A stretch of DNA of 64,000 nt from Dermatophagoides farinae (Eukaryota > Arthropoda > Arachnida > Sarcoptiformes > Pyroglyphidae): positions 3,224,001 through 3,288,000 of the forward strand of contig NC_134678.1 of assembly GCF_024713945.1 (NCBI RefSeq), read 5' to 3'. This document shows, piece after piece, positions 37,001 to 61,524 of this stretch; position 1 is the first letter of the stretch, and each line of letters opens with the position of its first letter. Position numbers and translations under genes: made by a program. The notes beneath the pieces were generated by a model. The model worked only from the letters and a program-made list of their open reading frames with translations, did not search any database and was not told the DNA's origin.

Positions 37001-40000
37001 CATAAAATTTCTGATGATTTTGACAATATTGTTGATTCTGGTGCCGATGGTGATGAACAATTGTTGAAATTGTCTCATTTAGAAGAATCGCTAGAAGCAC
37101 AACGTCCAAACATTGCCGATTGTGACCGTTCATGTCAAAAACTTTGTGAATTGCTCACCGATAATGGTTCAAAGAATGAAGTTCGAGGTCGTGTTGATGG
37201 CCTACGAAAATTTTACGATGATTTAAGCCAAAAAATAAGCGATAAAAAAGCTGAATTACAATTGGCATTGAAAGAAGATAAAGATTTCTTTTTCAATTGT
37301 AATGCCATTCAAGATTGGCTTCGTAACATGCAGAATAGATTATTGAAAGAATTTAAAGTTTCGGCCATACATGAAAAACTTCTCAAACAAGTGGATCAAT
37401 TTGAACCACTTTATCGTGAAGTTTTGGATAAGGAACATGAAATTCATATTTTGATTCAAAAAGGTGACGAATTACAGCGAGGTATTAGCCGACCAAGTGA
37501 TCAGAATCAAATACGAACAAAAATGGATCAATTAAAACGTCAATATAATCAATTGAAAGATGAAGCTACCGTACAACATACAAAATTACAGAAATGTTTA
37601 GACATTAGTACAAAATATCGAAATGCTTTCAATGCTTTCATGCCATGGTTGACACAGGCCGAAAATCGCCTAAAACAATTTGAAGGACTTGTGCTGACCA
37701 AACAACACATGGAAAAAATGTTGCGTGAAATTCAGGTAATTCAGATTTAAAATTTTGATGAAAATTTTGATTTTTTTTCTCTTCTGTTTGATAAAAATAC
37801 AGGCCTTGAAAAGTGACATTTCCCGACATAGTTCAGATTTTGAAACAATTTGTTCGTTAGGTGAAAGTCTCATCTCAACGGCTGATATTGATACTGAAGT
37901 AATTCGTGAACAATTAAATGAATTGAAAAAACGATGGAATAATCTTCAACGAGAAGTTGAAAATAAACTTAAAGAAGTGGAACAATTGTTACAAAAATTG
38001 AACATTTATGATGATAAAGCAGGGGATTTGAATCATGGCCTCAATCGTCTGGATGATAAGCTTAATCAATTAAGTCATAAAGATCCAAAACAATTGGAAA
38101 AACTTGAATCACTAATGGATGATTCAAAAAAATTGGCCGATGATTTGGATAAGTTGAAAAAAGTTGGTTTCAAAATTATCGATGAAGCTGGACCGGATGC
38201 TGATTCGGCTCCTATCCGTGATGGTTTAAAAAATTTTGATGATCGTTATAATACGTTGAACAACAATTTAGCTGATCGTCATCGTAGCCTGCAGAAAGCA
38301 TCAGGTGCTATGCAAAAATTCAACAATGATCTTTCTGCCATTCAAAAAGATTTGAATGCCTTGGAAGAAAAACTGGATAAAATGGCTCCAATTGGTCGCA
38401 AAATTCAAGTGGTTCAGATGCAAATTGAAGAAATGAAAGAATTCAATGGCAAATTATCTAAAGTATATGATAATCTTAAAGAAGCTGACCGAACATGTGA
38501 TGATTTGATTGCCAAAGGATTTGCTAGCGATCCAATCGGTACTCGTAATCAATTGGACAATTTACATCGAAAATATGAACGAATCAAAGAACGTGGTGAG
38601 AATCGTTTGAAAAATCTGGATGATGTTCTCGATCAATTGAAACAATTTAACGATCTTATTAATCAAAACATGAGAAGCATTAAAGATTTATTGAAAGAAA
38701 TTGACAATTTCAAACCGATTAGTCGTGATGTTGAAACCATACGATCACAGCAAAGAGAACTACAATCGTTTGTACAGAATCGTGTCGAACCATTAAAACA
38801 ACAAGTTGACGAGGTAAATCGATGTGGAAATGAATTGATACAATCAGCATCTCATGGTGTCGATGTTGGCCAGGTGGAAAAAGATCTGGAAAAACAAAAT
38901 GAAACCTGGAACAATCTCAAAGCAAAGGTACAAGAACGAGAAAAAAGTCTGGAAGCTGCTTTCCTTCAGGCTGGCCGATTTGAAGATGCATTGCGAAATG
39001 TTGAAAAATGGCTCAGCGAAACTGAAGAAATGGTAGCTAAACAGAAACCACCATCATCGGATTATGTTGCACTCAAAGCACAGATTCAAGAACAAAAATA
39101 TTTGAAAAAGACATTGACCGATCGTCAAGAAAGTATTGATAATCTACAAGAATTGGGTCGTGCTTTGATGAATAATTTGGATCGAGCTGAACGAAATCAG
39201 ATTGAAAAACAATTGGCCGACGTTAATCGACGTTTCAATCGATTATTTGATAGTTGTAATGAACGAATGAAAATGCTTGATGATATACTTCCATTGGCGA
39301 AAGAATTTTCCGAAAAAATTGTTCCACTTCAGGAATGGCTTGAATCAAGCGTAAGAAAACTTACCACACTGCAGGCTTTCTCAATCGAACCGAATAAATT
39401 AAATCGACGAATCAGTGAACATCAAAGTTTCCACCAGGAAGTAGTAGGTAAACAAAAAGATTTCAAAAATCTATCAAACATTGCCCAACGGTTGATTCAT
39501 CTAATTCGATCGGATGATGAAGGAAAATTAATTGCTGATAAACTATCCGAAGTGATTGAAAAATATGCTAAATTGGTTGAAGATAGTGATGAATTACAGA
39601 AAACATTACATGATGCATCCAAACAAATCGTAACATTCTTGGCTAATTTTGATAAACATTCAAAGTGGATAAATGAAATGGAATCAAAACTACAAAAACA
39701 TAAAATTCTTAACGTTCATCTGGATAAACTTAGAGATCAATTGGATGACGTAGAGAATATTCATCGTAATGTCGATTCGTATCAACGTGAAATCGCTGAA
39801 TTTGTCACTCATGGTCAACAATTGGCCAAACAATATTCAACGAATGATTCAATGTTTATACGGCAAAAAGTTGAATCCATTCAGAATAAATTCAATGACC
39901 TTACACAAATGGCCAGTGATAAATTGGAACAAATTCGAGCTTCATTGAATTTGGCTCAAAAATTCTATGCTGCCTTCGATGAATTGAATGAATGGATGAA

Positions 40001-43000
40001 AATGGCTGAAAATAAACTGAATCAAATTGATTCATATCCTATTTCACAACAAAATGAAATTATCGATAGTCTAGAATCGGATGTTACATCGAAACGAAGA
40101 TTATTGGATACGATTAACAATTTGGGAAATGAATTTGCCCGCACAAGCCCAGGACAAGGTGCATCGACAATCAATGGCTATGTTTCCAAATGTAATAAAC
40201 GATTTGATGCCATTATTGAACAACTTCAACGAAAAAGTGAAAAATTACGCTTAATGCGTGAACAAAATGAATCGCTAAACATCGATATCGATGAATTATT
40301 CGATTGGTTTAGAGATGCTGAACGACAATTATTGGAAGCCGAACCAATCACATCGAATTATGATCAGCTTTTGATTTTATTGCGTGAAGTAAAATCCCTA
40401 AACGATGATATTAATCAACAAAAATTACGTGTACGTGAAATTGTGAATAAAGTGAAAAAATTAATGCGTGATTCGACGACGGCCAACGATGAATTGATCA
40501 ACATTAATAATAAAACTGATGAACTTAAAGAATTGGCTAATAATGTTGCACAATTATGTCAGGATCGTCTTAATTCGATCGAACATGCCTTGCCATTAGT
40601 TGAACATTTCTTTGATACCCATAATGAAATTGTACAATTTTTGGATGAAATCGAAAATGAAGTTCAAATTCTGTCACAACCATCGATTTATGTGGAACAG
40701 ATTCGTAAACAACAGGAAACGACAAAACGTTTGATACAAAGTCTGAAATCGAATAAACCATTATTCGAACGATTGAATAAAACTGGTGATGAACTGATTG
40801 GTTTGTTGCAGAAAAAATCCGATATACATCAAATTAAACAGATTATGGATGATGATAATGAGCGATATAATCGGCTTAAAAATGCTTTACGTCAACGACA
40901 AAATGATCTGGAGAATGCTTTACAAGCAACATCATTATTTACGGATAAATTGGATGGCATGTTGAATGCATTAAATAATACTGCCGATCAATTGAAAAAT
41001 GCCGAACCAATTTCGGCACATGTTCCAAAAATTAAAGAACAAATCGGCGATAATAATGCCATATTGGATGATCTGAAAAAACGTGAAGATGCATTCAATG
41101 CTGTGAAGAATAATGCGAAAGAAATAATAAGTAAAGCTGGCCGTTCGGATGAGCCTGCCATTCGCGATATTAAAAATAAATTGGATCGATTGAATGACCT
41201 TTGGAATGATATTAATCGAATGGCCAATGAACGCGGTGATTGTCTGGATGATGCACTTAAATTGGCCAAACAATTCTGGAATGAATTAAATGATGTTATA
41301 CGTGCAATCAAAGATCTTGAAGATGCACTTGAATCACAGGAACCGCCGGCCATTGAACCAGATAAAATTCAACGACAACAGCATATTCTATCGGAAATTA
41401 AACATGATATGGATCGTACACGACCACGATTGGAACAATGTAAACAAGTGGGTAAAAATCTGATCAAAGTGTGTGGTGAACCAGATCGTCCAGAAGTACG
41501 AAAACAAATGGAAGATCTTGATAGTGCATGGGATAATGTAACCAGTTTGTATGCAAAACGCGAGAAAAATCTTATCGATGCCATGGAAAAAGCAATGGAA
41601 TTTCATGAAAAGATGCGAAATCTTCTGAAATTTCTGGATGATGCAGAAAATAAATTCGACAAACTTGGTCCGATCGCAGCCGATATTGATGAGGTGAAAA
41701 AACAAATACAGGAATTGAAAAATTTCAAAAATTGGGTCGATCCACATATGGTCGATGTTGAAGCATTAAATCGTATGGCACATGAACTATTGGATCGAGT
41801 ACCAAGTCACCAGGCTAAAGGTATTCGTGATGCTATCAGTGATATTAATAAACGATGGAAAAATTTATTGAAAAATATTGGTGATCGAAAAAGTGATCTG
41901 GATAATGCCCTACTAAAATTGGGACAATTTCAACATTCCTTAAATGAATTACTAGCCTGGATCGATAAAATTGAAAAAATATTGGATGAAGGTGAAAAAA
42001 TATATGCTGATCCACAAGTGATTGAAGTTGAATTGGCTAAACATAAAGTGTTACTCAATGATATTAATGCACATCAGGCCAATGTTGATGCATTAAATCA
42101 GGTTGGCCGTCATCTAATTGATTCGGAAATGGGATCCGAAAATGCACGAAATACGAAAGCTAAATTGAATCATTTGAATTCCCGTTGGAATACGCTAATT
42201 GATAAGGCTAATGGTCATACAAATGAATTAGAAGAATGTTTGCGAAAATCACAATCACTTGCACAGGAAATTCAAGATATGATGGCCTGGTTGAATGAAA
42301 TGGATCAATTGATTAGTACATCGAAACCAGTTGGTGGTCTACCGGAAACGGCACGTGAACAATTGAATCGTTTTATGGAAATCTATAATGAATTGGATAT
42401 GAATCGTCATAAAGTGGAAACCTTATTGCAAAATGGTCATGATTATGTATCAAAAGCTAAAGAAGGACAAGCCGTTCATCTACAACAGAATCTAAAAAAT
42501 CTACAAAACAAATGGGAAAATATTTTAAATCGTGCTAATGACCGTAAAATTAAATTAGAAATCGCGCTGAAAGAAGCAACCGAATTTCATGAAGCATTAC
42601 AAGAATTTGTTGATTGGTTAACATCGGCCGAAAAATATCTTGCTTCATTACAGCCGGTTAGCCGTGTATTAGAACATGTTCTTAAACAGATTGAAGAACA
42701 TAAACAATTCCAAAAAGATATTGGTCTACATCGTGAAACAATGTTGAATCTGGATAAAAAAGGAACACATTTGAAATACTTTAGCCAAAAACAAGATGTC
42801 ATCCTCATTAAGAATCTTCTTTCAAGTGTACAATTACGTTGGGAAAAAGTATTGACTAAAACGGCTGAACGAGCAAGAAATCTTGATCATGGTTTCAAAG
42901 AGGCAAAAGAATTTCATGATTCATGGTCCGATCTTATTACATGGCTTGATGATGCTGAACGAACATTGGATAGTATTGAACCAATGGGTAATAATCCTGA

Positions 43001-46000
43001 TTTAATTAAACAAACTCTTTATCGTCATAAAGAATTTCAACGACAATTGGGTGGTAAACAATCGAATTATGATTCAACAATGCGTTTTGGTAAAAGCCTA
43101 AAGGATAAAGCACCAAAAGATGATGGACCCATATTACAGGAAATGTTAGATGAATTGAAAAATAAATGGAATGCTGTATGTCAGAAATCGGTGGATAAAC
43201 AACGTAAACTTGAAGAAGCTCTACTGTTTTCTGGACAATTCAAGGATGCCATACAGGCATTGATTGAATGGTTGGAAAAAGCGAAACAAATATTGGCATT
43301 TGATCAACCGGTACATGGTGATCTAGATACGGTCAATACATTGATCGATGATCATCGAAACTTTATCGATGATTTTAAATCACGTGAAAAGAATATGCAA
43401 TTTGTTCGCAAAACAGCGGCTGATCTGATGAAATCGGCTAATGCAGATGATGCACGACAAATCGGTAGACAAATGGAAACATTGGAAGAGAAATGGGCTG
43501 AAATTGAAAAAATGATGCAACAAAAACAACTTCGTTTAGATGATGCATTGAAATTGGCAAATCAATTACATAAAGCTGTACATACATTGCTTGGATGGCT
43601 TTCGGATGCTGAACTTAAATTACGTTTCGCTGGCCCGTTACCCGATAATGAAGATGTCGTACAACAACAAATACGTGAACATGAAAATTTTATTCGTGAA
43701 ATGCAACAAAAAGAACGTGAAAAGAATTCAACATTGGATTTGGCCAACGATATTCTACGACTTTCACATCCAAACGCATTACCAGTTATTAAACATTGGA
43801 TAACAATCATTCAATCACGTTGGGATGAAGTGGAATCATGGGGCAGACAACGTGAAAAACGTCTTAATGATCAATTAAAATCGATGAAAGATGCATCCGA
43901 ATTATTAAATAATTTGGATCAATGGTTAGCGACAACAGAATCAAATCTGAATGAACTTGAATCACAACCATTACCGGATGAAATAATTGAATTGGAAAAA
44001 TTAAATGATGATCATCAACGATTAATCGATGATTTGAATGACAAAAAAGTGGATGTTGAATTTATTATCAAAACATATTCGTCGAAGAAGCCGTCATCTG
44101 CCTCGAAAGATCGATCAACATCATCAAAACATCGTTTATATGGTGTGAAAATGCCGAAAGCACAATTTGAACCGGAAATCAATAATCCGAAAGCTAATCA
44201 TATGTTGGATAAATGGCATTCTGTATGGCGATTAGTTTCCGATCGTATGAAACGATTAAAAGATGGCTTAAATTATAATCGTGAAATGGAAAAAATGAAA
44301 AATTTTGATTTCGAAGAATGGCGAAAACGTTTTTTATTCTTTAATGATCACCGTAAAGCAAAATTAATGGATTTTTTCAAACGAATCGATCGTGATAATG
44401 ATGGCCGTGTTAGTAAATCTGAATTTATCAATGGAGTATTGAATTCACGTTTTACAACGAATCGTTTGGAAATGGAAAATGTGGCTGATATATTCGACAT
44501 TAATGGTGATCGTTATATTGATCAGAAAGAATATTTGGATACATTAAGGCCGGATAAAGGTGATGGTGCTGGTCAATCATCAAAAACGGAATCGGAAATA
44601 ATACAGGATGAAGTTCAACGATTAGCCGATCAATGTACTTGTGTTGAACGTTATAAAGTATATCGAATTGATGAAGGAAAATATAGGGTAACTAAATATA
44701 TATGGGGGTTTAATTTATAAGGATGTTAAATTTTTTATTAATTTTTTTTTCTCTTTCAATAGTTTGGCGATTCGCAAAAACTTCGTCTAGTTCGAATATT
44801 ACGTAGTACCGTTATGGTACGTGTTGGTGGTGGATGGGTTTCGTTGAGCGATTTTCTTCTCAAACATGATCCTTGTCGAGGTATGTTTTTTTCCTGATTC
44901 AGATTAAATCTTTGTTTAAAAAAATAAGTTTGATGGTCGAAATGGTTTTTTTTATTTGTTCGTTTTCAATTTGATATTGATTTTTGTTTGTTTATTTTTT
45001 TCAAAAAAAATTGCATGTATTAATTTTGCTTCGATTGTTGATTCGAATGAATGGGCTTTAATCCATAAAAATCCAAAAATACATAGCCAAAGGTCGTACT
45101 AATGTAGAATTGCGAGAACAATTTGTGCTTGCTGATAGTGTAAGAGGTCAATCAATGACACCATTTAAATCAAAATCACCATTCCAATCGGATGGTTCCA
45201 TTACGATGACTGGCCCGATTTCGAAGGTATTTTTTTCTGTTTGTTGTTATCAACAATTCACATTTACGGTTTTCTATCTGTAGTAACAATGTTTCTATCT
45301 TTGTCGAAAATTTTTCTTTATTTCTTTCTTTTTCTATTAATTTTTTTGTTTTCAATTTTATTTGACCATCCAACTGCTAAATCTATATTCCATACACACG
45401 CTTTTCTAACCACCTTGTTTTTTTTCCTTCTTGAATAAAATTTTATTCACTTTTGCCATACCAAAAAAAAAGACTGCTTTCTTGAATATTGTGGATGTTT
45501 ACCGGTACAAACCACTATTCTACCATATGGTTTCATCTATCAGCCACTTATTTATGATATAAATTCTAAAATTCCTGTGCCAAAAACTACAAATCTGGTA
45601 ACCTATCTGAGAAAAAAAAATTTTTCATTTCATTTCAAATCAAATCTTTATTATTTATGTCTTGAATTTTTTTATTTTTATTTTCATACATTTCTTTTTT
45701 CAATAATGATAATGTTTATTCATTAATGTATACATATAGATCCGAGAAAAAACCGAACGGAGTATGCCTATGTCTCAAACTTATCGTTATGGAGGATCTA
45801 GTGGTGATCATACCAATAATGAAGATCAAGAAGATCTATTTCGATCACGTTCACGTACACGTATGACTCGTAAGTTTTTTTAAACAAAAATATCAAGTCA
45901 AATTCAATTGTTAATTGATTAATTTTTTTTTTTGCATGACAACAGCTTCGAATAGTCGGCCAACAAGCCGTTCTGGATCGTACCATTCATCAAGTCAACC

Positions 46001-46184
46001 ACCAAGTCGTGCTGGTAGTGATATGTCAACCGGAAGTCTTGAAGGCTATAAATTAGGTCCAAGAAAAAAGAGTGGACTTAATGGTTCGACTATTGGTCGA
46101 CCAACAACATCATCATTTAATCGTGCATCTTCATTTACTAAACAATCATCACCTTCTCCGATTGGTCCACGATGGAATATATAA
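26880..46184 (+). CDS. shot: Spectraplakin (short stop / MACF1 / dystonin)
   Basis: Giant actin-microtubule cross-linker. Common exons: 32093-32154, 32561-32728, 32795-32887, 32957-33117, 33187-34734, 34794-34929, 35009-35305, 35438-36544, 36635-37735, 37803-44687, 44763-44880, 45087-45226, 45740-45869, 45946-46184; all phases agree. With first exon 28499-28850 the product is 4178 aa. CH1-CH2 actin-binding domains start at [19 protein letters not shown] and end near [21 protein letters not shown] shortened plakin-like helical region follows, then a 369-aa Asn/Ser/Thr-rich insert, a rod of about 20 or more spectrin repeats, two EF hands ([13 protein letters not shown] and [14 protein letters not shown]), the GAS2 domain ([37 protein letters not shown]) and a Ser/Arg/Gly-rich microtubule-binding tail. 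I see no SH3 motif in the plakin region and no plectin repeats. The 5' boundary of exon 1a is uncertain. Confidence 0.93.
28039..28079. repeat. (CA)n microsatellite
   Basis: An uninterrupted dinucleotide run of about 20 CA units in the spectraplakin 5' region between exons 1a and 1b. Likely length-polymorphic. Confidence 0.95.
28499..28850 (+). CDS. Spectraplakin alternative first exon 1b
   Basis: ATG 28499 opens [18 protein letters not shown] and continues 117 codons (Asn/Asp-rich) to a donor (cacg|gtaaat) in phase 1. Joined to exon 32093 it gives [13 protein letters not shown]. It fits as an isoform-specific amino terminus. It has Gly2 but lacks Ser/Thr at position 6, so N-myristoylation is not well supported. 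Confidence 0.6.
28851..31875. other. Spectraplakin 5' intronic/intergenic DNA
   Basis: About 3 kb of AT-rich sequence with many microsatellites (CT repeat near 30574-30595, GTT repeats near 30616-30650, GT repeats near 29660-29690). It lies between alternative first exons. The short ORFs are repeat-derived. No other gene seen. Confidence 0.55.
31876..31975 (+). CDS. Spectraplakin alternative first exon 1c (GC donor)
   Basis: ATG 31876 opens [20 protein letters not shown], then [10 protein letters not shown]. No GT donor in phase 1 exists before the stop, but aaag|gcgtgt is a GC-type donor in phase 1 that would give [13 protein letters not shown]. It lies only 117 bp upstream of the first CH exon. 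Use of the GC donor is inferred. Confidence 0.5.
32295..32312 (+). CDS. Candidate 18-nt microexon in CH1
   Basis: Between CH1 exons 32093-32154 and 32561-32728 (phase 0 to phase 0), the sequence aaag|cttggaacagttcgtcag|gtatt has both splice signals and codes LGTVRQ in frame. Plectin has small alternative exons at the equivalent position of its actin-binding domain. Without the microexon the CH1 length matches shot, so it would be optional. Confidence 0.3.
35438..36544 (+). CDS. Spectraplakin 369-codon Asn/Ser/Thr-rich exon
   Basis: An open exon of exactly 1107 nt, phase 0 at both ends, between the plakin-like region and the rod. It starts [14 protein letters not shown], has an Asn/Asp run encoded by AAT/GAT repeats, then low-complexity Ser/Thr/Asp/Glu-rich sequence. 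Because it is frame-neutral, it could be included or skipped. It has no spectrin-repeat character and no recognised domain. Confidence 0.7.
45473..45597 (+). CDS. Candidate alternative exon after the GAS2 domain
   Basis: A 125-nt stretch with AG before and GT after, open for 42 codons ([15 protein letters not shown], then [17 protein letters not shown]). It needs a phase-1 donor upstream and ends in phase 0, the same as exon 45087-45226. It therefore fits as a mutually exclusive alternative to that exon, spliced from 44880 to 45740. The acceptor follows an A-run, which is weak. Confidence 0.4.
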
Positions 46185-46682
46185 TGATTTGAAAGACAAA
46201 TTATAAATAATAATGACCGATGATAACGACGACGACGATGACGACGACCATTATAATATTTTAATAAGAAAAACAAAACAAATATATGACAATCTTAATG
46301 CGACTAATTTTTTTCTATTTCTAACTAGTCTCTCCCTTTTCTCACACAAAAAGAAAAAAGACTACTATTGTATTAACCATGATGGAATATTTTTTTTTAT
46401 TTATTTTTTCATATTTTTTTATGTTATGTTTCAAAAATACAAATAAAAATCCTTCATCAGTATTAATAAGATGGTGGTTGATTCGAAAATCAAATTCAGA
46501 AAAGTTCATCAATGGTACAATCTTATTTTACACCAATGTTGAATTTAATAATAAAAAATATGATGAAAATTATTGCTGTCAGATGGCGATACATTTTTAT
46601 TGTCAAAGCATAAAACTAATGATGATGAATATTTTTTTGTGATTTTTTTTCATTTTAATTTACGAAAAATAACAAATCAATA
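46185..46682. other. Intergenic region between spectraplakin and OSTC
   Basis: 498 bp: spectraplakin 3' UTR followed by the OSTC upstream region. AT-rich, no gene seen. Confidence 0.6.
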
Positions 46683-47208
46683 ATGGATACTATTGCCGAA
46701 ACAATTGTTGGATTACCATTTCATATTTTAGTTATGCCGAATCTTAAATTGAAAAAACCATGGTGGCTACGATTACCATCATCGATGGTTGTTTATAGTT
46801 TTGTTTTGGTTTCCTATTTTCTTGTTTGTGGTGGAATTATATATGATGTCATTATAGAACCCCCGGCTATCGGATCGAATGTTGATGAACATGGACATTC
46901 ACGGCCAGTAGCATTCATGCCATATCGTGTTAATGGACAATATATAATGGAAGGTCTAGCATCTTCAATGCTTTTTACATTGGGTGCCATTGGTTTTGTC
47001 ATTCTGGATAAAACACATCAACCGACCACGCGTAAATTGAATCGAATATTCTTGATTTCAATTGGTTTCGCACTTATATTGGTATCATTTTTTACTACAT
47101 GGATTTTTATGCGTATGAAATTACCGTAAGTCATTGTTTTCCATTTTTAATCGAATCCAGAATCTAACAATTTTTTCAAAAATTTTCAATAGTGGCTATC
47201 TGCAATAA
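46683..47208 (+). CDS. OSTC: OSTC, oligosaccharyltransferase complex subunit (intact copy)
   Basis: Exons 46683-47125 and 47193-47208 encode 152 aa. OSTC/DC2 links the STT3A oligosaccharyltransferase to the Sec61 translocon in the ER membrane for cotranslational N-glycosylation. The sequence follows the human protein closely: [62 protein letters not shown] and the closing MRMKLPGYLQ, whose last five residues come from the tiny second exon. Three transmembrane helices are visible. This is the left, complete gene of a tandem duplication; a partial copy lies at 50181-50553. Confidence 0.96.
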
Positions 47209-47524
47209 TCCATGGAATCGGCCACCGAATTCAACAAGACTGTGGCAATTTTTGATATTTAAATGGAAAATTTGATATACGAAATATTAAAAAATGAATT
47301 TTAAATTTTAAAAAATGAAATCAAGAATTTTTCTTTCGATCACCTTCTTTATGAACGTCCTCGATATTCACTGGGATCGAGAAAAAGAATTTCCAAATTT
47401 GATGTGGTAGTGGTATAGTATACATATATGTCTTAATGTGCAATAATTTAATAACATTGCCCGCGTGCAACACATCGGCTTAACACTCAAAGACACACCT
47501 ACATAAAAAACATTATACTTTATA

Positions 47525-47734
47525 CAGACGCTCTCCGACTTGCAAACATTCGGAAATATATCATATATGACGAATGAATTTTAGTTAAAAAATTTTTTTG
47601 CTTCACTTTCGTGAGGCTAAATTCTAACTGAATGTTACAGTTGGAAAGAAGAATGAGCCAAAAAATTTGCGAAAAAATTTATGTTACGAACTTTCTTCTG
47701 GAACATAACTCGTTTGTGAGTTGAGGTTTGTCTG
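47525..47734. mobile_element. Pogo-like MITE, left duplication copy
   Basis: 210 bp flanked by TA dinucleotides. The left end reads CAGACGCTCTCCGACTTGC and the right end, on the minus strand, CAGACAAACCTCAACTCAC. The two are imperfect inverted repeats with the CAGAC start and AACGxGTTAxGTTCC-like interior of Tc1/mariner-superfamily pogo elements. No coding capacity. The same element sits in the right unit at 50867-51076, so it inserted before the duplication. Confidence 0.6.
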
Positions 47735-47833
47735 TATATAGCTCAATAAAATAGCTCACCTCCATCAACACTAGATGGTGACCAAATGGTCAATGTCTGT
47801 CCGTCGATGTGTGTGTACAATCATAACACGGTC

Positions 47834-47985
47834 ACGGTTTTTTTTTCGCGCCATTTTGCTTCATTTTTTTCTTCGCGTTAAATGTCACTTGTTATCCAAA
47901 TGCTTTAGATCAAAGTTTTTCATCGAACAATTCAGAATTTATCGGCTTTTATCGCGCGCCATTTTGCTTAATTTTTTTTTCGAAT
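47834..47985 (+). repeat. Local rearrangement with a BET exon fragment
   Basis: In the left unit, a cgcgccattttgctt-type motif occurs twice (about 47847 and 47955). Between the copies lies about 55 bp (47884-47938) nearly identical to the start of BET exon 2 at 48262-48316, including gctttagatcaaag and ttcatcgaacaattcag. The right unit has the motif once and no exon fragment. This is a small secondary duplication specific to the left unit. Confidence 0.7.
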
Positions 47986-48155
47986 TAAATTTTCATTTAT
48001 TTCAACATTTAAATTTTATTCGATTCAACAACAAAGAAAAATTCGATTTCGTTATTTGATTTGTGTGTTTGTTTGTCTTTGTGAAAATTGCATCTAATGA
48101 AAAACAACTTAGAAATACACACGCAGCAGAAAATCGTTACAAAAGAACGTATAAT

Positions 48156-50553
48156 ATGGATCCCAGGTTTGTTTATTTTTTTTCATTTAAAAAATGGCCT
48201 TTATCAATCCAAAAATTGGTTGGTTACTTTTTGGTTGTTTATTTTACCAAAATTCTAGCAATGCCACTTGTTATGCTGATGCTTTAGATCAAAGTTTTTC
48301 ATCGAACAATTCAGAATCGAATATGTCTTCGACAACAACACCAACTATCGTTACATCCCAACAATCAACTTTACCGACATCCATTCAAACTGCTGCATCG
48401 ATGCTCATTCAACAGCAACAAAAACCTCAACAAGATCAATCCATATTAGCTGGACAACAATTGTCAGCAAATGTTGGTGAGGCCTCCGTGATAGGAACCA
48501 ATCAAGATGATACACCAATCTATTGGCATGAACCATTAATACCGCCGGTTAAAGGAATGGTACAACCAATCACTGCACCACCGCCGGATAAACCACATCG
48601 TAATACAAATCAGCTACAATATATGCTACGCATAATCAATAGAAATATTTGGAAACATCAATATGCATGGCCATTTCAAGAGCCTGTTAATGCGGAAAAA
48701 TTACAGCTACCCGATTATCATACAATCATTCGAAAACCAATGGATTTGGGAACGATAAAAAAACGCTTAGAAAATTGTTACTATTATTCAGCACAAGAAT
48801 GTATAAATGATTTTCGTCTCATGTTTGACAATTGTTATTTGTATAATAAGGAAGGTGATGATGTTGTTATGATGGCACATAGTATTGAAAAATTATACAA
48901 TTCAAAATTAGCCGAAATGCCTCGTGAAGAGATTGAAATACCTATACAGGTAAAAGGCGCCAGAAAAAAAGGTAAAGGAAGATCAAAAACGAAAGGAGGA
49001 TCTGGTCCTAGAGGTATGTCGTATTTTGTTTATTGTTAAATTACTTATTGTATGTTATACATTTTTAAATATTAGTAATCAATACAAGTTCGCGACCATT
49101 GTCAACGCCAATATCCACTGTTCCAAAGCAGCCCATATCTTTATATCCTGTACAACCACAACAACATATACCCTATAGACAGATGAATAATAGTGGTCCG
49201 ACAGTGGCACAAAAAAATAATGTTAATCAAACATCCATTGTTCCATCAACAGCATTAACTGATGGCAAAACATCATTAGCAACGATGCCTACAATGGATT
49301 CGATTCTTAACCAAAATCCTCCTACGATTTTACTTCCACAACTTCTCAGTATTCAAAAACAATCATCAAAAGTGAAAAAAAGAAAATTATCCAAAGAAAA
49401 TTATTGTTATAAATATAATTCACCTGATCATCAAGTTGTTAATATGGGTCGAAAATTACAGGTAAATAATTTAATTAATTTATCATTTGTTTGGTCAATA
49501 TATAGTGCCTCTGCTGGGCAAAAAATCTGTCTTGTAATCGATGATGGATTTTTAATCAACAGAAGAGGAAAATAGTGTAATCAAAATTAATCGCAATTTT
49601 TCTTTAATAATAATGAGAATTATGGTTTCATGGTTTTGTGACATTTCTCTTTTGTATTAGGATGTGTTTGAAATGAGATATGCAAAAATGCCAGATTTTG
49701 AGGATCATAGCGATGAAAGTGGTACATCCGACAGCAATCATTCCTCATCATCATGTTTCGATAGTGAAGATGAAAATGAACGACGTAATGCATTGAAAAC
49801 CTTACAAGAACAATTGAAAAAATTGACCGAACAAGTACAACAATTAGCTAAACAATCAGAGAGAAGTAGTAAGAAAAAGAAACATAAATCCAAAACTAGT
49901 GAAACGGATCTTAAAGAACGTGGTGGTGATAATAACAGTCGTGTCAAAGTAGAAGTTGATGATTTAAATACCGCTTTTTATCACCACCGTCATCATACGA
50001 CAAATAAAACGAATCGTGAATCATCTGAAGCTGCTACTGTACCTCAGAATTTGAATCGAATCGATTCAGAAGAAGAAGATAATGCTCGTCCGATGAGCTA
50101 TGATGAAAAACGACAGCTTAGCCTCGACTCTAACAAATTACCTGGTATGTTTTTTGTTTCACATCATTTTTGATTCTATTATTATATATGATGTCATTAT
50201 AGAACCCCCGGCTATCGGATCGAATGTTGATGAACATGGACATTCACGGCCAGTAGCATTCATGCCATATCATGTTAATGGCCAACATATAATGGAAGGT
50301 CTAGCATCTTCAATGCTTTTTATATTGGGTGCAATTGATTTTGTCATTCTGGATAAAACACATCAACCGAACACGCGTAAACTGAATCGAATATTCTTGA
50401 TTTCAATTGGTTTCGCACTTATATTGGTATCATTTTTTACTACATGGATTTTTATGCGTATGAAATTACCGTAAGTCATTGTTTTCCATTTTTAATTGAA
50501 TCCAGAATCTAACAATTTTTTCAAAAATTTTCATTAGTGGCTATCTGCAATAA
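48156..50553 (+). pseudogene. Truncated BET copy fused to partial OSTC copy
   Basis: Exons equivalent to the intact BET gene: 48156-48166, 48259-49013, 49076-49461, 49661-50144, open throughout (545 codons). Bromodomain 1 is complete ([29 protein letters not shown]). Bromodomain 2 is almost entirely deleted, and the copy ends before the ET domain at NKLPG. Three deletions relative to the intact copy (345 nt, 219 nt, and 199 nt of DNA that removes 144 coding nt plus an intron) all keep frame. Directly downstream lies the 3' part of OSTC. A donor at 50145 and a possible acceptor at 50202 would join the two in the OSTC frame, giving a 639-aa chimera through 50203-50470 and 50538-50553. Whether it is expressed is unknown; the usual BET upstream region is missing. 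Confidence 0.75.
50181..50553 (+). pseudogene. Partial OSTC copy lacking its 5' part
   Basis: Matches 46836-47208 at about 97% identity and is open through both exons, but lacks the start and first transmembrane helix. It has about five replacement changes (PYRVNGQY to PYHVNGQH, T to I, G to D, T to N) against about three silent ones, so it looks free of constraint. It may survive as the tail of the BET-OSTC chimera. Confidence 0.85.
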
Positions 50554-50866
50554 TCCATGGAATCAGCCACCGAATTCAGCAATACTGTGACAATTTTTGA
50601 TATTTAAATGGAAAATTTGATATTCTAAATATTAAAAAAAATTTCAAATTTTAAAAAATGAAATCAAGAATTTTTCTTTCGATCACCTTCTTTATGAACG
50701 TCCTCGATATTCACTGGAATCAAGAAAAAGAATTTCCAAATTTTATGTGGTAGTGGTATGTCGTAATGTGCAATAATTTATTAACATGGTGTGAATGCCG
50801 ATTGCCCGCGCGCTCGGCATAACACACAAAGACACACCTACATAATAAAACACATTATATTTCATA

Positions 50867-51076
50867 CAGACGCTCTCCGACTTGCAAACATTCGGAGATA
50901 TATCATATATGACGAATGAATTTTTGTTAAAAAATTTTTTTGCTTCACTTTTGTGAGGCTAATTTCTAACTGAATGTTACTGATGGAAAGAAGAATGAGC
51001 CAAAAAAATTGCGAAAAAATTTATGTTACGAACTTTCTTCTGGAACATAACTCGTTTGTGAGTTGAAGTTTGTCTG
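50867..51076. mobile_element. Pogo-like MITE, right duplication copy
   Basis: 210 bp, same ends and TA flanks as 47525-47734, differing at scattered bases. It was carried along in the segmental duplication. Confidence 0.6.
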
Positions 51077-51179
51077 TATATTCTTTACAAATAAAATAGC
51101 TCACTTCCATCAACACTAGATGGTGATCAAATCGTTTCGATTGGTCAATGTCTGTCTGTCCGTCGATGTGTGTGTGTAT

Positions 51180-52231
51180 ATATGTAACAACAATCGATGC
51201 CTCTCCCTTTTGTTTGGCCAGCCATCATGAATCGTTGTGTGTGTTTTGTGAGCAGTAAAAATTGAGCGACGAATCGCTGACTCGATCTGTTCGCCCAACT
51301 GTTCCCGCTCACTTATATTCAGCGTTTATTGTATTCTCTGTTTGTATATTTGACCTGACCATCATCATTAATTAACATCAAATAAATAAAATTTGAGACC
51401 CATCAAATCAATCAATACCGGTTAAAACTACCGTTTTTCTTTTAAAACGGAACCACTTTTTTGGAAAATCAACCAATTTATATCATCTTGAAGTGTATTT
51501 TGTGTCTGTGAGTGTTTATCAACGACAAAAAATCATGGTCGTTGCTTGATGACGGACGCTTTGTTTTGTTTTTGTATGTGTATAAAGAATTTTCAAACAA
51601 CATCTTTATGATTAAAGTTTATTTGTTTTTTCATACACACCTACTCATGCATTCATCATTTAATCAATGAATTATGGATTTCGATTTCGCTTTTTCGATT
51701 GAATTAATGGCGGTCATCTTGCTTGTGCCCAGAAAGAAATTCTTATAAATACAACAGGCCATAATATTTATGGATTTTTCCGTTTTGTGTTTCCTTCTGA
51801 TCAATTTTTCCAATTTTATCAAAATTGAGTCGTCTTTTTTTTGTTTTTCTTTTTGATTGTTTGCCTTCCAATACCCAACACACACAAGATTACATGCTAT
51901 AACCTGATCATGAATATTCTGGCCAAAAGATGGAGCCTATTTTTGATGATTCTTAATGACTCGTTTTTGTGTGTGTGTTTTGGGTAATTTGATGACACAC
52001 ACACTCATAACACGGCCACGGCTTTTATCGCGCGCCATTTTGCTTAATTTTTTTTTCGAATTAAATTTTCATTTATTTCAACATTTAAATTTTATTCGAT
52101 TCAACAACAAAGAAAAATTCGATTTCGTTATTTGATTTGTGTGTTTGTTTGTCTTTGTGAAAATTGCATCTAATGAAAAACAACTTAGAAATACACACGC
52201 AGCAGAAAATCGTTACAAAAGAACGTATAAT
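51180..52231. promoter_or_regulatory. Upstream region and 5' UTR of the intact BET gene
   Basis: About 830 bp (roughly 51180-52010) has no counterpart in the left unit, although flanking sequence on both sides does. Lying directly upstream of the BET first exon, it is the likely place of the promoter. No core element was defined. Confidence 0.45.
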
Positions 52232-55200
52232 ATGGATCCCAGGTTTGTTTATTTTTTTTCATTTAAAAAATGGCCTTTATCAATCCAAAAATTGGTTGGT
52301 TACTTTTTGGTTGTTTATTTTACCAAAATTCTAGCAATGCCACTTGTTATGCAGATGCTTTAGATCAAAGTTTTTCATCGAACAATTCAGAATCGAATAT
52401 GTCTTCGACAACAACACCAGCTATCGTTACATCCCAACAATCAACTTTACCGACATCCATTCAAGCTGCTGCATCGATGCTCACTCAGCAACAAAAACCT
52501 CAACAAGATCAATCCATATTAGCTGGACAACAATTGTCAGCAAATGTTGGTGAGGCCACCGTGATAGGAACCAATCAAGATGGTACACCAATCTATTGGC
52601 ATGAACCATTAATACCGCCGGTTAAAGGAATGGTACAACCAATCACTGCACCACCGCCGGATAAACCACATCGTAATACAAATCAGCTACAATATATGCT
52701 ACGCATAATCAATAGAAATATTTGGAAACATCAATATGCATGGCCATTTCAAGAGCCTGTTAATGCGGAAAAATTACAGCTACCCGATTATCATACAATC
52801 ATTCGAAAACCAATGGATTTGGGAACGATAAAAAAACGCTTAGAAAATTGTTACTATTATTCAGCACAAGAATGTATAAATGATTTTCGTCTCATGTTTA
52901 ACAATTGTTATTTGTATAATAAGGAAGGTGATGATGTTGTTATGATGGCACATAGTATTGAAAAATTATACAATTCAAAATTAGCCGAAATGCCTCGTGA
53001 AGAGATTGAAATACCTATACAGGTAAAAGGCGCCAAAGAAAAAGGAAAAAAAGGTAAAGGAAAATCAAAAACGAAAGGAGCATCTGGGCCTAGAGGTATG
53101 TCGTATTTTGTTTATTATTGATAATAATTTACTTATTACTGTATGATATGCATTTTTAAATATTAGTAATCAATACAAGTTCGCTACCATTGTCAACGCC
53201 AATATCCACTGTTCCAAAGCAGCCCATATCTTTATATCCTGTACAACCACAACAACAAGTACCCTCTAGACAGATGAATAATAGTGGTCCGACAGTGGCA
53301 CAAAAAAGTAATGTTAGTCAAACATCCATTGTTCCATCAACAGCATCAACCGGTGGCAAAACATCACTAACAACAACGCCTACAATGGATTCGATTCTTA
53401 ATCAAAATCCTCCTACGATTTTACCGCCACAACAGTCTAATAATTTACCTCAACGTTCAAATGTTGATATGAATGCTATTGGACAACAACAACAACAACA
53501 AACATCATTGTTGCAAGCATCGCAACCACAACAACAACCTCCATCGACAAATTCTCAATATCTCAATTCTAGCCCAACAACTGTGATCCCAGTCAATTCG
53601 ACAGCAACCAAAACGCCTAAGAAAGGTGTAAAAAGAAAAGCCGATACTACAACATTGGAATTAGAATCATCGGGTAATTTTGCGACCCATATTGTCGCCG
53701 AAGATATTAAACCATCGACAATGAAAACACGAAGAGAAAGTGGTCGACCGATAAAGAAACCGTCGAAAGAATTACCTGATATCGGTATTCAAAAACAATC
53801 ATCATCAAAAGTAAAAAAAGGAAAATTATCCGAACAAATGAAATATTGTGGAACGATTCTGAAGGAGCTTTTTGCTAAAAAACATTACCCTAATGCATGG
53901 CCATTTTATAATCCAGTAGATGTGGATCAACTTAAACTACCCGATTATTATGATGTGATCAAACATCCAATGGATTTGAATACGGTCAAAAGAAAACTAG
54001 AAGCACGTGAATATAAGAAACCTGGTGAATTTGCTGCCGATATAAGGCTAATATTTACAAACTGTTATAAATATAATTCACCTGATCATCAAGTTGTTAA
54101 TATGGGTCGAAAATTACAGGTAAATAATTTAATTAATTTATCATTTGTTTGGTCAATATATAGTGCCTCTGCTGGGCAAAAAATCTGTCTTGTAATCGAT
54201 GATGGATTTTTAATCAACAGAAGAGGAAAATCATAGTGTAATCAAAATTAATCGCAATTTTTCTTTAATAATAATGAGAATTATGGTTTCATGGTTTTGT
54301 AACATTTCTCTTTTGTATTAGGATGTGTTTGAAATGAGATATGCCAAAATGCCAGATTTTGAGGATCATAGCGATGAAAGTGGTGATGAAGGTGGTACAT
54401 CCGACAGTAATCATTCCTCATCATCATGTTCGGATAGTTCCGATAGTGAAGATGAAAATGAACGACGTAATGCATTGAAAACCCTACAAGAACAATTGAA
54501 AAAATTGACCGAACAAGTACAACAATTGGCTAAACAATCAGAGAGAAGTAGTAAGAAAAAGAAACATAAATCCAAAGTTAGTAAAACGGATCGTAAAGAA
54601 CGTGGTGGTGGTAATAGCGGTGGTGTCAAAGTAGAAGTTAATGATGATTTGGATGCCGCTTTTAATCACCATCATCATCATACCGCTGGTAATCAGACTA
54701 ATTCTGCATCAATTAATTCACAATTTCCAATCAATGCTTTTGGTATGAATGATGCGTTTGGTGGCGGAATCAGTAGTGGTTCTAATGCTATAAGTAAGTT
54801 TTATAAATGAACTATGGAAAAAAAATTATATGTGAATTGTTTATACAGATTCCAATAGTGTCAATAGTAAGAAAACCAAGACGACAAATAAAACGAATCG
54901 TAAATCATCTAAAGCTGCAACTGTACCTCAGAATTTGAATCGAATCGATTCAGAAGAAGAAGATAATGCTCGTCCGATGAGCTATGATGAAAAACGACAG
55001 CTTAGCCTCGACATTAACAAATTACCTGGTATGTTTTTTCTTTCACATCATTTTTGATTCTGTATTTATATTTGTGATTTGATGATATACAGGTGACAAA
55101 CTCGGTAAAGTTGTACAGATTATCCAACAACGTGAACCAACATTAAGGGATTCAAATCCGGATGAGATTGAAATTGATTTCGAAACATTAAAGCCTTCTA

Positions 55201-58200
55201 CATTACGTGAATTGGAAAGCTATGTAGCCAGTTGTTTGAAAAAGAAAAATAGTATGTTTTGTTTTATTAAATTGTTTCATCTTGATTTTTCTGATAATCA
55301 ATTTTATTAACCCTCCAAAAAAATATAGCCACGATAAAAGATAAAAGGCCAAGTAAAGCAAAAGAAGATACGGAAAAGAAAAAACAGGAAATTGAGAAAC
55401 GCCTTAATGATAATGGACAATTAACGGCCAATAAGAAAAATAAAAAAGGTTTGGATAGATTTAAGATTCATAATAAATTAATGACATATTGATTGATTAA
55501 ATTTAAATTGATTAATGTTTTTTTCTTTTTCGTTAATTATGGCCATATTGTTCCTGATCCCCAAACATTGAAACAAATAATTTTCGCAGATCCATATGCA
55601 TTCACCGAAGAAGAAAATGGTGTTAGATTAAGTGAATCAAGTTCGAGTGATAGTGATTCGAGCAGCGATAGTAGCTCATCATCAAGTTCATCATCGGACA
55701 GTTCTGATTCTGAATCAGGTTAGGAATAAACTTCCTTCATATTATAAAAACATATACAGACACATTGCACAAAACATTAAGCCTTTTATATATGATAAGA
55801 TTATATAAATTTGGCCATAAATAATGTAGGAAGAAAAATGGCTGATAAAATTTTAACTTGGTAGATTTTCCTATTCAAAAAAAAACTGAAATTTCAATAC
55901 CTTGGAGTGCAGTGTGTGTTATATTATATGGAATGAAAGAGAAAGAAAGAAAAGATTCATTTATTTATTCAATCCTAAAACAAAGATTTATTTTTTGCAT
56001 ATAATTGCAATTTGCAAAACGTCCACAATACTTACACAATACAATTTAAATGTCTTTGATAAACAACATTTAAATTATTTTTTCTTTGATAATATTTTAT
56101 GGATCATATTTTTCATTCTTCAATATCCCTGTGTTGCTACTACTCACTATTATTTATTGTTTCAACAAAATTCTTTGTCTCCTGGTCCTTTTTTCTCGCT
56201 CGTTCTCATTCTTGTTTTGTCTCTCTCTCTCTCTCTCTAATTCCTAAGACATTTTTCACAAACTGTAACCCATAATCATCATCATATTCGTCTATTTTCT
56301 ATCTTAATAATTTTATTCTCTACCAATCATCATAACAAAAGAATATTCTAGATTTATATAATTTGTACAAAAAAAAAATCACATCATCAGATGAACATTA
56401 TCTACATATATTTGTCACAAATAATATCATCTTTTGTTCAATTGTAAATGTTTACCTGAATAATTCTACTTATTATTTTTGTCGGTTGTTATCCAATATT
56501 TCGACATTTAGTGTGTGTGTGTGATGATTTTATAAAATACGTTCATTTTTTTGCACCCACATATATTTTATTTAGTTTTTTTTGTGTGTTGTTTTAATCC
56601 TAATCTAAATTATTGACTTGTAAAAATTATATAATTTTTTTCTTATTTCGCGCCTAAATAAATTGCTCGACTTTTTTTTATCATCTGCATCGTCTATTAT
56701 TATCTAAGCCCCCTTAGACAACAACGTTTTTGATTTATTCTTGTTGTTTTTTTTGTTTCTAAAATAATTTGTCAAACAAATTATAAATTTTTTTACACAT
56801 ACAAAAAATTTTTCATATACAATCTAAATATTTTATTTTATTAATTGAATGAATGATGACAAATAATAAACAAATTGAAATTTGGAATATTGTTTTGGGT
56901 TCAATTTTTTTTTGTTCGCCACTGCACTCTGGGTTTGAGATTTTTTTTAGATATTGATGCTAATTGAGGAATCTTATTTAAATATCTAATGACGATTGTT
57001 TAATTGATGATTTGATCCAACAATCATAATGAATTCAACAAAATTGATTGATTGTTTTTTTGAGTTTGATCAAAAAATAATTTCTTCCATTATATTTTCA
57101 TATATTAGAATCACCGAAGAAAAAAGGAAGCCAAAACAATCAGGCCGGTAGTCAATATAATGCACCACAACATGCACCTACATTTCCCGGAACATTACCG
57201 ATAAATTCTCCCTATACACAGCCATCTTCATTTCCAAATAATTCATCCGGAAGTGGTGGTATTGTTTCCAGTGTATCAACGATTGGAATTCAGCCACCAA
57301 CATCATCAAATATAGCACCACCACCACCGCCGCCCTCATCAGCATTACCATCGATAGGGCAATCATCACATCATGCTCATCCATTATTACCTATTTTAAA
57401 TGTTGGTATACAAGAGCCTTTTAATATGAATTCTGGTCTTCAGCCACCACCAACATCATCATCATCATTGACTAAGAATATTCCATCCCAATCTCAACCA
57501 CCACCACCAAATTCTTCGTCGTCCATTAATTCGGCCGGTGGTGGTGGTAATCGTGCTGTAGCACAACCATCACTTCGTAAATCTAATTCATCATCTATAC
57601 ATCAATTATCATCGCCATCATTTCAAAATTCTCAACATACATCATCATCTTCATCAACACATTTTAAAAATGGTTAGCCATATTTTCGGTTAAGATGAAC
57701 ATTCATTCCAACCATTTTGTTTGTTTTTATTTACAGCCAATGTTTTACCACGAGAATCATCATCCGGTTCTTCATTAAGTATGTTGGATTGTTTTCTAAT
57801 CAAAAAGACTATGAATTTCAAAATTAAAATTTTTATTGTTTTTTAGTATCCAAAATAAAGGAAGAGCCAAGTAGCCGTATAAATGATCCAGGTAAGTTTT
57901 TAGTTGAAAATTTACCTTATAAAGTTACAATACTATATTTATAATATAATAGACTTTGTGGCTTATAAATCTAAAACCAGCAATAATGTCAATCAAACTA
58001 TGGACAAAAAAGATTCAAAATCATCGATGAATCTAATGTCGAATTCTGGTTTATCTTCAAAGAAAACGGTTTGTAATTCAATTATTTGATTCTGATTTCA
58101 TTGATTATAATTTTGAAAATTTTTATTTGAATACAGGCTCCTACGACGGACCCCAAGCAAAAATCAATGACCTCTTGGTCCAGTCAAACATCAAGTAGCA

Positions 58201-59610: not shown

Positions 59611-61320
59611 TCAAAGATTGATGATCTCTTCCGGATAACATTTTTTATATGCATCGATTAATTGGGGATCCATTAAACAAATATTCTCTAATTGATTACC
59701 CAATGTTACCCAATTTGGTTGCGTATTATGTTGTCTGCCGAATAGTTCAATTTTTCGTGTACCAGGTGATAAACGTTCAATAATACCATAAATTTCATCT
59801 GGTTTATGACTTGTAGCACGAACTTCGGCTACGATAACATCGCAATCAAGACTACGATTAATGTTCTTTGGATTTCCTTTCACACCAACCAGACAGTGTT
59901 CTTTACCATGATTAATCCAATGTCCAGTACGACCAGTGCGTATAATACGTTGTAATTGATTTGTTTTCACCCAGATTAATTCATCACATCTTTCATAGCC
60001 CCAAAGTTTAAGACATTCACGGCCCAATTCCATGGCACGACCGGTAACCCATAAAAATATAAGACCTTCATCCTGTAAACATGGTATATTTAGATTTCGC
60101 ATTTCATCATCGGACATTGTTCCATATGGTAATTCCATGTGAATATCCCATGGTGGATCGGCCATTACGACGGCAAATTTACCCAAAATACTCATGTCGA
60201 AAAAACGTAAATCGCATCGTATCCATTGTGCTGGGAAAAGATTTCTTTTGAATGGCTGTTCAGTTGCATTGGCCAATGTTTTGACAATATTATTATTCGT
60301 AGTAATAGTATTCATTGTTTGATTATTCATTTCATTTTTACTTTTTTCATCGTGTTGGTCATGGGCCGATGCAATATGAACATTCTTATTATTCTTCTTT
60401 TCAACTTTGTAATGTACATATTTACAGGTATCCATATGGAAACAAGTATTTAAAAAAGAACAATCTCCCAATGATTCATCTGTATGTTTTTGAATGATTT
60501 TTAAAAAATGTATACGTTCACATGGTTCATTCGAATCATTCGAACGCATACATTCTTCGGGTGTTCCACGTGAACAAAATTCCTGTACATTTGGATTCAG
60601 CGAACGAAATTGTTCATTCAATGATAATTCTTTAGCCGTTGGTCTTGACAATAATTTTTGAATCTCTTCAGAAATTTTTTGATTATTTTTTTCGATCGTC
60701 GACTGTAATGATAAGATACATTCGACTGAATCATTGTTTGATTTTTCTTTTTCATTTGAATGAAATTTTTTCGTCGTTTGTGAGTCGTCTAGATTGGATA
60801 CCGATTGATTTGTCTCATTAGTTTCATCATTACTTGCCGCTCGTTTCAATGTATTTTCAACTGTTTTGATTTTTTCATTATCTTCCTTCAATAGTTTTAA
60901 TGCATCACAATCAACAGATAGAACAAAAATGGTTTTTTCACTATTATCCGATGGTAAATATTCATTGAGTTGGATTAATTTTCGTAATGAAAATTTAATT
61001 AATAATTCTTTGGTCGTTTTTTTATCCGTAAAACTGGACGTATAAGATATGATTGTTGAAAAATCAATAGGAAAATTGTTTGATTTATCGCAAAGAATAT
61101 CTATCAATTTATTTTCTATTTTTTTAAAATTTGGATTCGTTTTTTGATCATTAATAAAACCAACTGGAATGGTTGTCGAAATATTCGTAAAAGATGCTGA
61201 TGACGATGATGTTACACTCAATATATTTTCACGTTGCCGTTTCCATTGTTGAATTTTTTCTTTTATGGAATTATTTCGTTTTTGAATTGCCTGTAAATCA
61301 TTCCATTTTGAATTGTCCAT
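59611..61320 (-). CDS. METTL3: METTL3, catalytic m6A mRNA methyltransferase
   Basis: Single exon, 569 aa (human 580). Catalytic subunit of the METTL3-METTL14 complex, which writes N6-methyladenosine on nuclear mRNA. The catalytic motif DPPW (VMADPPWDIHMELPYG) is at about residue 388. The paired CCCH zinc fingers precede it (VQEFCSRGTPEECM, then CSFLNTCFHMDTCKYVHY). The MTase domain continues LFLWVTGRAMELGRECLKLW (first L is I in this copy), WVKTNQLQRIIRTGRTGHW and NHGKEHCLVGVKGNP, ending LFGRQHNTQPNWVTLGNQL. The N-terminus (MDNSKWNDLQAIQKRNNSIK) is a helix as in the family. The start is ATG 61320; the frame extends 32 codons upstream with a hydrophobic, non-homologous stretch that is unlikely to be translated. 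Confidence 0.97.
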   Translation of the reverse strand: MDNSKWNDLQAIQKRNNSIKEKIQQWKRQRENILSVTSSSSASFTNISTTIPVGFINDQKTNPNFKKIENKLIDILCDKSNNFPIDFSTIISYTSSFTDKKTTKELLIKFSLRKLIQLNEYLPSDNSEKTIFVLSVDCDALKLLKEDNEKIKTVENTLKRAASNDETNETNQSVSNLDDSQTTKKFHSNEKEKSNNDSVECILSLQSTIEKNNQKISEEIQKLLSRPTAKELSLNEQFRSLNPNVQEFCSRGTPEECMRSNDSNEPCERIHFLKIIQKHTDESLGDCSFLNTCFHMDTCKYVHYKVEKKNNKNVHIASAHDQHDEKSKNEMNNQTMNTITTNNNIVKTLANATEQPFKRNLFPAQWIRCDLRFFDMSILGKFAVVMADPPWDIHMELPYGTMSDDEMRNLNIPCLQDEGLIFLWVTGRAMELGRECLKLWGYERCDELIWVKTNQLQRIIRTGRTGHWINHGKEHCLVGVKGNPKNINRSLDCDVIVAEVRATSHKPDEIYGIIERLSPGTRKIELFGRQHNTQPNWVTLGNQLENICLMDPQLIDAYKKCYPEEIINL

Positions 61321-61524
61321 TTTGATCGAAAAATACACTGATATTCGAATGTCAATCCAAAAAAAACTGAACAAAACAATAATAATGACTATTTTAATAA
61401 AAATTTCTCTTATCAACTATTTCTACATGATAGCTAAACTGAATTCGTTTCAGTTTCAATTATTATATTTAAATTATTTTTATTTGAATCAAATTATTAT
61501 AAAAAAATACGAAATAAAATCTTG

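Follow-up and report, generated by a model that had tools for sequence, protein, structure and literature searches.

A 64-kb window of the genome of the mite Dermatophagoides farinae (contig C2, positions 3224001–3288000) contains parts of OSTC and of a BET gene twice over, which raises the question of whether this is a genuine tandem duplication and of what became of the two gene pieces that meet at its seam. The window was compared with itself and with the whole genome (62,435,336 bases in 22 contigs); positions below are those of the window unless another contig is named. A group 2 allergen predicted from the genome agrees with Der f 2 (1ahk_A) at 119 of 120 residues, which identifies the species, whereas a papain-type protease was uninformative in this respect. 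A genuine tandem duplication with breakpoints inside the two genes was confirmed. We consider it probable that it was formed by a join of BET intron 5 to OSTC exon 1, was followed by losses in the left copy and by gene conversion, and has left an in-frame BET–OSTC hybrid frame at the seam.

Structure of the Duplicated Locus

Self-BLAST and a repeat search agreed on collinear direct repeats across 46836–55074, in which a unit spanning OSTC exon 1 to BET intron 5 occurs twice head-to-tail, as the initial annotation of this DNA had proposed. Four large repeat pieces of 90–96% identity were recovered by self-BLAST, far beyond chance (E = 0 for the two largest): 46836–47816 with 50181–51175 (90%), 47943–49342 with 52019–53433 (96%), 49405–49998 with 54063–54683 (92%), and 49997–50190 with 54881–55074 (95%), all in direct orientation. 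With ends refined by eye in the alignment, the left copy extends from 46837 to 50187 and the right copy from 50182 to 55071, both on the plus strand. At the seam lies a 6-bp TTATAT (50182–50187) that, by eye, is common to OSTC exon 1 (46837–46842) and BET intron 5 (55066–55071). The genes follow one another as OSTC, partial BET, partial OSTC, and BET, which is exactly the order predicted by one tandem duplication, and gene models together with domain searches bore out the further claim that the left OSTC is complete and the genes at the seam are partial; the right BET, described as complete as well, shows both bromodomains and the ET domain. A whole-genome search with 46000–50000, in which match counts are lower bounds, placed 5 of 5 matches within the locus and found neither a third copy nor a separate contig with a single unit.

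The 825 bp upstream of the right BET (51176–52000) have no counterpart in the left copy. Because 51176–52018 is single copy in the genome, this difference is preferably read, without an outgroup, as a deletion from the left copy, and the insertion of a repeat into the right unit was rejected.

The complete left OSTC gene (46683–47208, plus strand; exons 46683–47125 and 47193–47208) encodes 152 amino acids (aa) and matches the OSTC chain 6s7o_H (E = 4.2e-64) as well as Pfam OST3_OST6 (35.4 bits). In the right OSTC piece the first 51 codons are missing, a number that rises to 58 with the splice predicted below. The right BET gene (52232–55720, plus strand; exon model reaching as far as 55093, where exon 6 starts) has both marks of the BET family in a domain search of the gene model, namely two bromodomain stretches and the ET (BET) domain. 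The left BET (48156–50144, plus strand; exons 48156–48166, 48259–49013, 49076–49461, and 49661–50144) encodes one bromodomain, which matches the first bromodomain of BRD4 (6dne, i-Evalue 1.2e-50), and only the end of bromodomain 2, most of which is lost. No match to PF17035 (ET domain) was detected in the left BET or in the hybrid, the genome giving two such matches, one in the right BET and one on contig C10.

Over 545 codons, the reading frame of the left BET contains no stop. Its first exon is a modelled one, and an ATG at 48194, inside intron 1, also opens the frame in both copies. Introns 1–3 have GT and AG ends, and a retrocopy origin was rejected because these introns are kept. In the protein alignment, the BET copies show nine length differences (1, 3, 115, 1, 73, 4, 3, 1, and 48 residues), all nine of which keep the frame; the 48-residue deletion in the left copy also removes the 55-nt intron 4. 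With a single bromodomain and without a BET/ET domain, the left copy is no extra BET, which leaves one full-length BET at the locus; the added dosage suggested by the earlier mention of a dosage-sensitive chromatin regulator is therefore not supported.

Further bromodomain matches were observed elsewhere in the genome. Contig C10 (873270–875227) carries a separate BET-type gene with one ET match and three bromodomain matches, the latter probably representing two domains, one of them split by an intron; counting this gene, D. farinae carries two BET genes in addition to the partial copy. On the minus strand of contig C8 (230070–232664), six bromodomain matches fall within approximately 2.6 kb, which we take to be probably one polybromo-type gene.

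Predicted Splice and Hybrid Frame at the Seam

The donor of BET intron 5 is kept at 50145 in the left copy, and 50145–50202 (plus strand) would form a seam intron of 58 nt (GTATGT...TTATAG), with BET intron 5 as its first half and one-time OSTC coding sequence as its second. The single AG within it is formed by the last two bases (50201–50202), inside former OSTC codons; the other introns of the locus are 55–202 nt long, and most of them end in TAG. The predicted splice from 50144 to 50203 would keep to the reading frame native to OSTC and, once the OSTC intron is also removed, reach the stop codon of that gene. The seam is predicted from these signals to be a usable in-frame splice that gives one open frame across it, while without it the left frame ends nine codons past the donor (open reading frame (ORF) 49664–50173). 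Neither this splice nor the loss within bromodomain 2 had featured in the initial annotation.

The predicted hybrid is 639 aa long and ends with OSTC residues 59–152, which are encoded by the OSTC fragment at 50203–50553 (plus strand; exons 50203–50470 and 50538–50553) in frame with the left BET. Pfam recognized the bromodomain in the hybrid, and the OSTC part presumably holds transmembrane segments 2 and 3. AATAAA motifs are present downstream of the OSTC fragment at 50844 and 51090.

Uneven Divergence Between the Copies

The two copies differ at 122 of 3141 aligned bases (3.9%), a figure that leaves out sequence aligning only with large gaps, including the relict at 47817–47938 described below. 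Divergence varies strongly along the unit. In OSTC, differences were counted at 8/290 bases of exon 1, 2/67 of the intron, 0/16 of exon 2, and 47/593 (7.9%) of the 3′ region; in BET, at 4/217 of the 5′ region, 0/11 of exon 1, 0/92 of intron 1, 10/752 of exon 2, 8/62 of intron 2, 16/324 of exon 3, 1/199 of intron 3, 24/484 of exon 4, and 2/34 of intron 5. The most diverged parts differ by 8–13% between the copies.

The longest identical run, a probable conversion tract of 334 bases (47943–48276, plus strand, equal to 52019–52352), covers the 5′ region, exon 1, intron 1, and the start of exon 2 of BET. Random placement produced a run of this length in 2 of 10,000 trials and one as long as the second longest (316 bases) in 4 of 10,000, and with noncoding sites alone the longest run (326) was reached in 0 of 10,000, all under the assumption of even mutation along the unit. 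Just upstream of this tract, a relict at 47817–47938 (plus strand) joins diverged BET 5′ flank, resembling 52001–52066, to the initial 58 bases of exon 2, resembling 52336–52393. Of its 122 positions, 13 do not match the right copy (12 substitutions and one gap), against 0/334 in the neighboring tract (Fisher 2e-8).

This mosaic is best explained by gene conversion between the copies. On the simplest reading of the relict, the 5′ end of the left copy was at first rearranged, and conversion or insertion subsequently supplied an intact version out of the right copy; a local duplication within the left copy followed by conversion is also possible. The OSTC identity of approximately 97% given in the initial annotation was reproduced (97.2% over exon 1), but because divergence is mosaic in this way it does not date the event, and the duplication is not clearly recent, contrary to the young age that it had been taken to suggest.

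BET intron 3 (49462–49660 and 54120–54321) is near-identical between the copies, and in the left one the frame stays clear of stops for 38 codons. This open stretch is perhaps an alternative exon end, or chance.

Alternative Explanations

Doubt about the duplication itself arises from the assembly, which in what is presumably its description (PMC11074847) is 62.43 Mb long, was built from PacBio, Illumina, and Hi-C data, and merges three assemblies by Quickmerge. It exceeds the k-mer genome size of 59.35 Mb reported there by approximately 3 Mb, and for that reason some of its duplications may be false. In that case two diverged haplotypes could have been set end to end, or Quickmerge could have made a chimeric join, and abutted haplotypes too would yield complete outer and partial inner genes. 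We nevertheless regard an artefact as very unlikely, since the divergence of the copies (3.9% overall and 7.9% downstream of OSTC) is approximately 7–15 times the heterozygosity of 0.52% stated in the same source (PMC11074847), the left “allele” would be grossly defective, lacking a bromodomain and upstream sequence, and the 6 bp common to both sides of the seam are too little for an assembler overlap. The 64-kb window moreover contains no N characters, and the genome search gave no separate single-unit contig. An artefact had already been called unlikely on account of the divergence of the copies; the verdict stands with the heterozygosity and the short seam taken into account, but its original ground does not suffice, as divergence alone would fit abutted haplotypes. 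The inferred conversion is likewise open to a different account, in which the tracts of low divergence are noncoding elements under conservation and the two copies have just diverged by 4–8%. The 5′ flank and intron 3 could indeed hold regulatory or alternative-exon sequence, as the 38 in-frame open codons of the left intron 3 would allow, but we judge this account unlikely in view of the approximately 305 noncoding bases that show 0 differences, compared with 47/593 for the OSTC 3′ region (Fisher 3e-9), the contrast in divergence between introns 3 and 2 (Fisher 5e-5), and the relict, whose copy of a portion of this 5′ flank has diverged by 15% over 67 bp.

A more serious alternative accepts the duplication but regards the left BET and the OSTC fragment on the right as pseudogenes in decay, without a product, the open frame being owed to chance and to repair by conversion; we give it an even chance of being correct. 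Several observations in its favor weigh against a maintained hybrid. The NG86 method applied to 544 aligned codons of the BET copies gave a synonymous divergence (dS) of 0.053, a nonsynonymous divergence (dN) of 0.038, and a dN/dS of 0.71 (bootstrap 0.43–1.35), values by which constraint is not shown; dN/dS is 1.48 in codons 1–240 (dS 0.010) and 0.64 in those after 240 (dS 0.088). The OSTC fragment differs from the intact copy by five nonsynonymous and three synonymous changes in 96 codons (ratio 0.49), and this pattern, like that of BET, looks relaxed. At four of the five replaced residues the intact OSTC agrees by eye with the PDB chain, and therefore it is the fragment that took the changes. 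The hybrid has no Pfam match to OST3_OST6 at E ≤ 0.01, compared with the 35.4 bits of the complete OSTC, and the left copy is without the 825 bp that presumably include the BET promoter. Small insertions and deletions are multiples of three in 6/6 coding cases but also in 5/8 noncoding ones, and say little. On the side of a maintained frame, all nine coding length differences are in frame, three of them large deletions (a 1 in 27 chance if random), every splice site of the left copy is kept, and a new in-frame one has been added at the seam. The probability that the left frame would contain no stop by chance, 0.22 with 33 substitutions and 0.058 with 65, was counted for maintenance as well, although it is not negligible and would also suit decay.

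Proposed History and Possible Role

From the observed unit, open frame, splice signals, and uneven divergence, we infer the following order of events for the duplication that we favor. BET intron 5 would have been joined to OSTC exon 1, probably through the 6-bp microhomology, after which intron 4, the larger part of bromodomain 2, and the 825 bp preceding BET may have disappeared from the left copy. Sequence transferred between the copies by gene conversion, or by insertion, would then have re-homogenized the left BET 5′ end and possibly intron 3. What would remain at the seam is a BET frame with bromodomain 1 only, splicing in frame into a truncated OSTC to give the 639-aa hybrid.

Judged by these sequence signals, transcription of the hybrid is conceivable, with the balance tipping slightly against it. 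If it is made, its likeliest effect would be that of a partial BET, a reader lacking bromodomain 2 and ET that may compete weakly with full-length BET. It is improbable that the hybrid is an expressed and selected new gene, whose product would be an acetyl-lysine reader with a single bromodomain, anchored in the endoplasmic reticulum (ER) or nuclear envelope by two OSTC membrane helices and acting as a competitor of full-length BET, and whose 5′ end would be kept intact by conversion from the neighboring copy.

An expressed hybrid would represent a BET fusion gene of natural origin, produced in a single step through partial tandem duplication, with its intact parents adjacent; an unexpressed one would be a mite partial duplicate of the ordinary sort. 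The locus also illustrates clearly that sequence identity between tandem copies can mislead about the age of their duplication, since parts of the pair seem to have been re-homogenized.

Comparison With Known Systems

Chimeric genes formed by partial tandem duplication are an already known kind, and the locus described here belongs to it. Sdic of Drosophila melanogaster and the chimeras of Drosophila yakuba (PMC7475035, PMC3395120, PMC5460883, PMC6776367) share with the mite locus, as far as the available parts of these reports go, adjacent genes copied head-to-tail, breakpoints inside genes, and a fused frame at the seam. Compared with these systems, the mite locus differs in consisting of two single units rather than an array, in having a hybrid that is predicted from sequence alone, and in joining a chromatin reader to an ER membrane protein.

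Among BET proteins, which include BRD4 and Fs(1)h, the left BET resembles BRD4 in its bromodomain 1, but it keeps only the end of bromodomain 2 and has no detected ET domain. BET relatives that have lost a standard part are known from the Drosophila testis, where tBRD-1 lacks the ET domain and tBRD-2 has one bromodomain, both being needed for male fertility; according to the portion of the report available, neither lacks both bromodomain 2 and ET and neither is fused to a membrane protein (PMC4345279). Among the papers listed from the openly licensed PMC literature, none on a BET duplication or BET–OSTC hybrid in Dermatophagoides was seen, which is weak evidence of absence. A search of a prokaryote genome collection with OSTC gave 43 pattern matches, none of them a relative.

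Other Features of the Window

A tandem array at 7341–8062 (216-bp unit, 3.4 copies, 85% matches) lies inside a 588-aa ORF that resembles a coiled coil. Upstream of OSTC, an ORF of 2321 aa (37755–44720) presumably corresponds to the spectrin-repeat end of a spectraplakin, which it resembles. On the minus strand at 59611–61416, a 601-aa ORF contains a DPPW motif and resembles what we take to be a METTL3-type methyltransferase.

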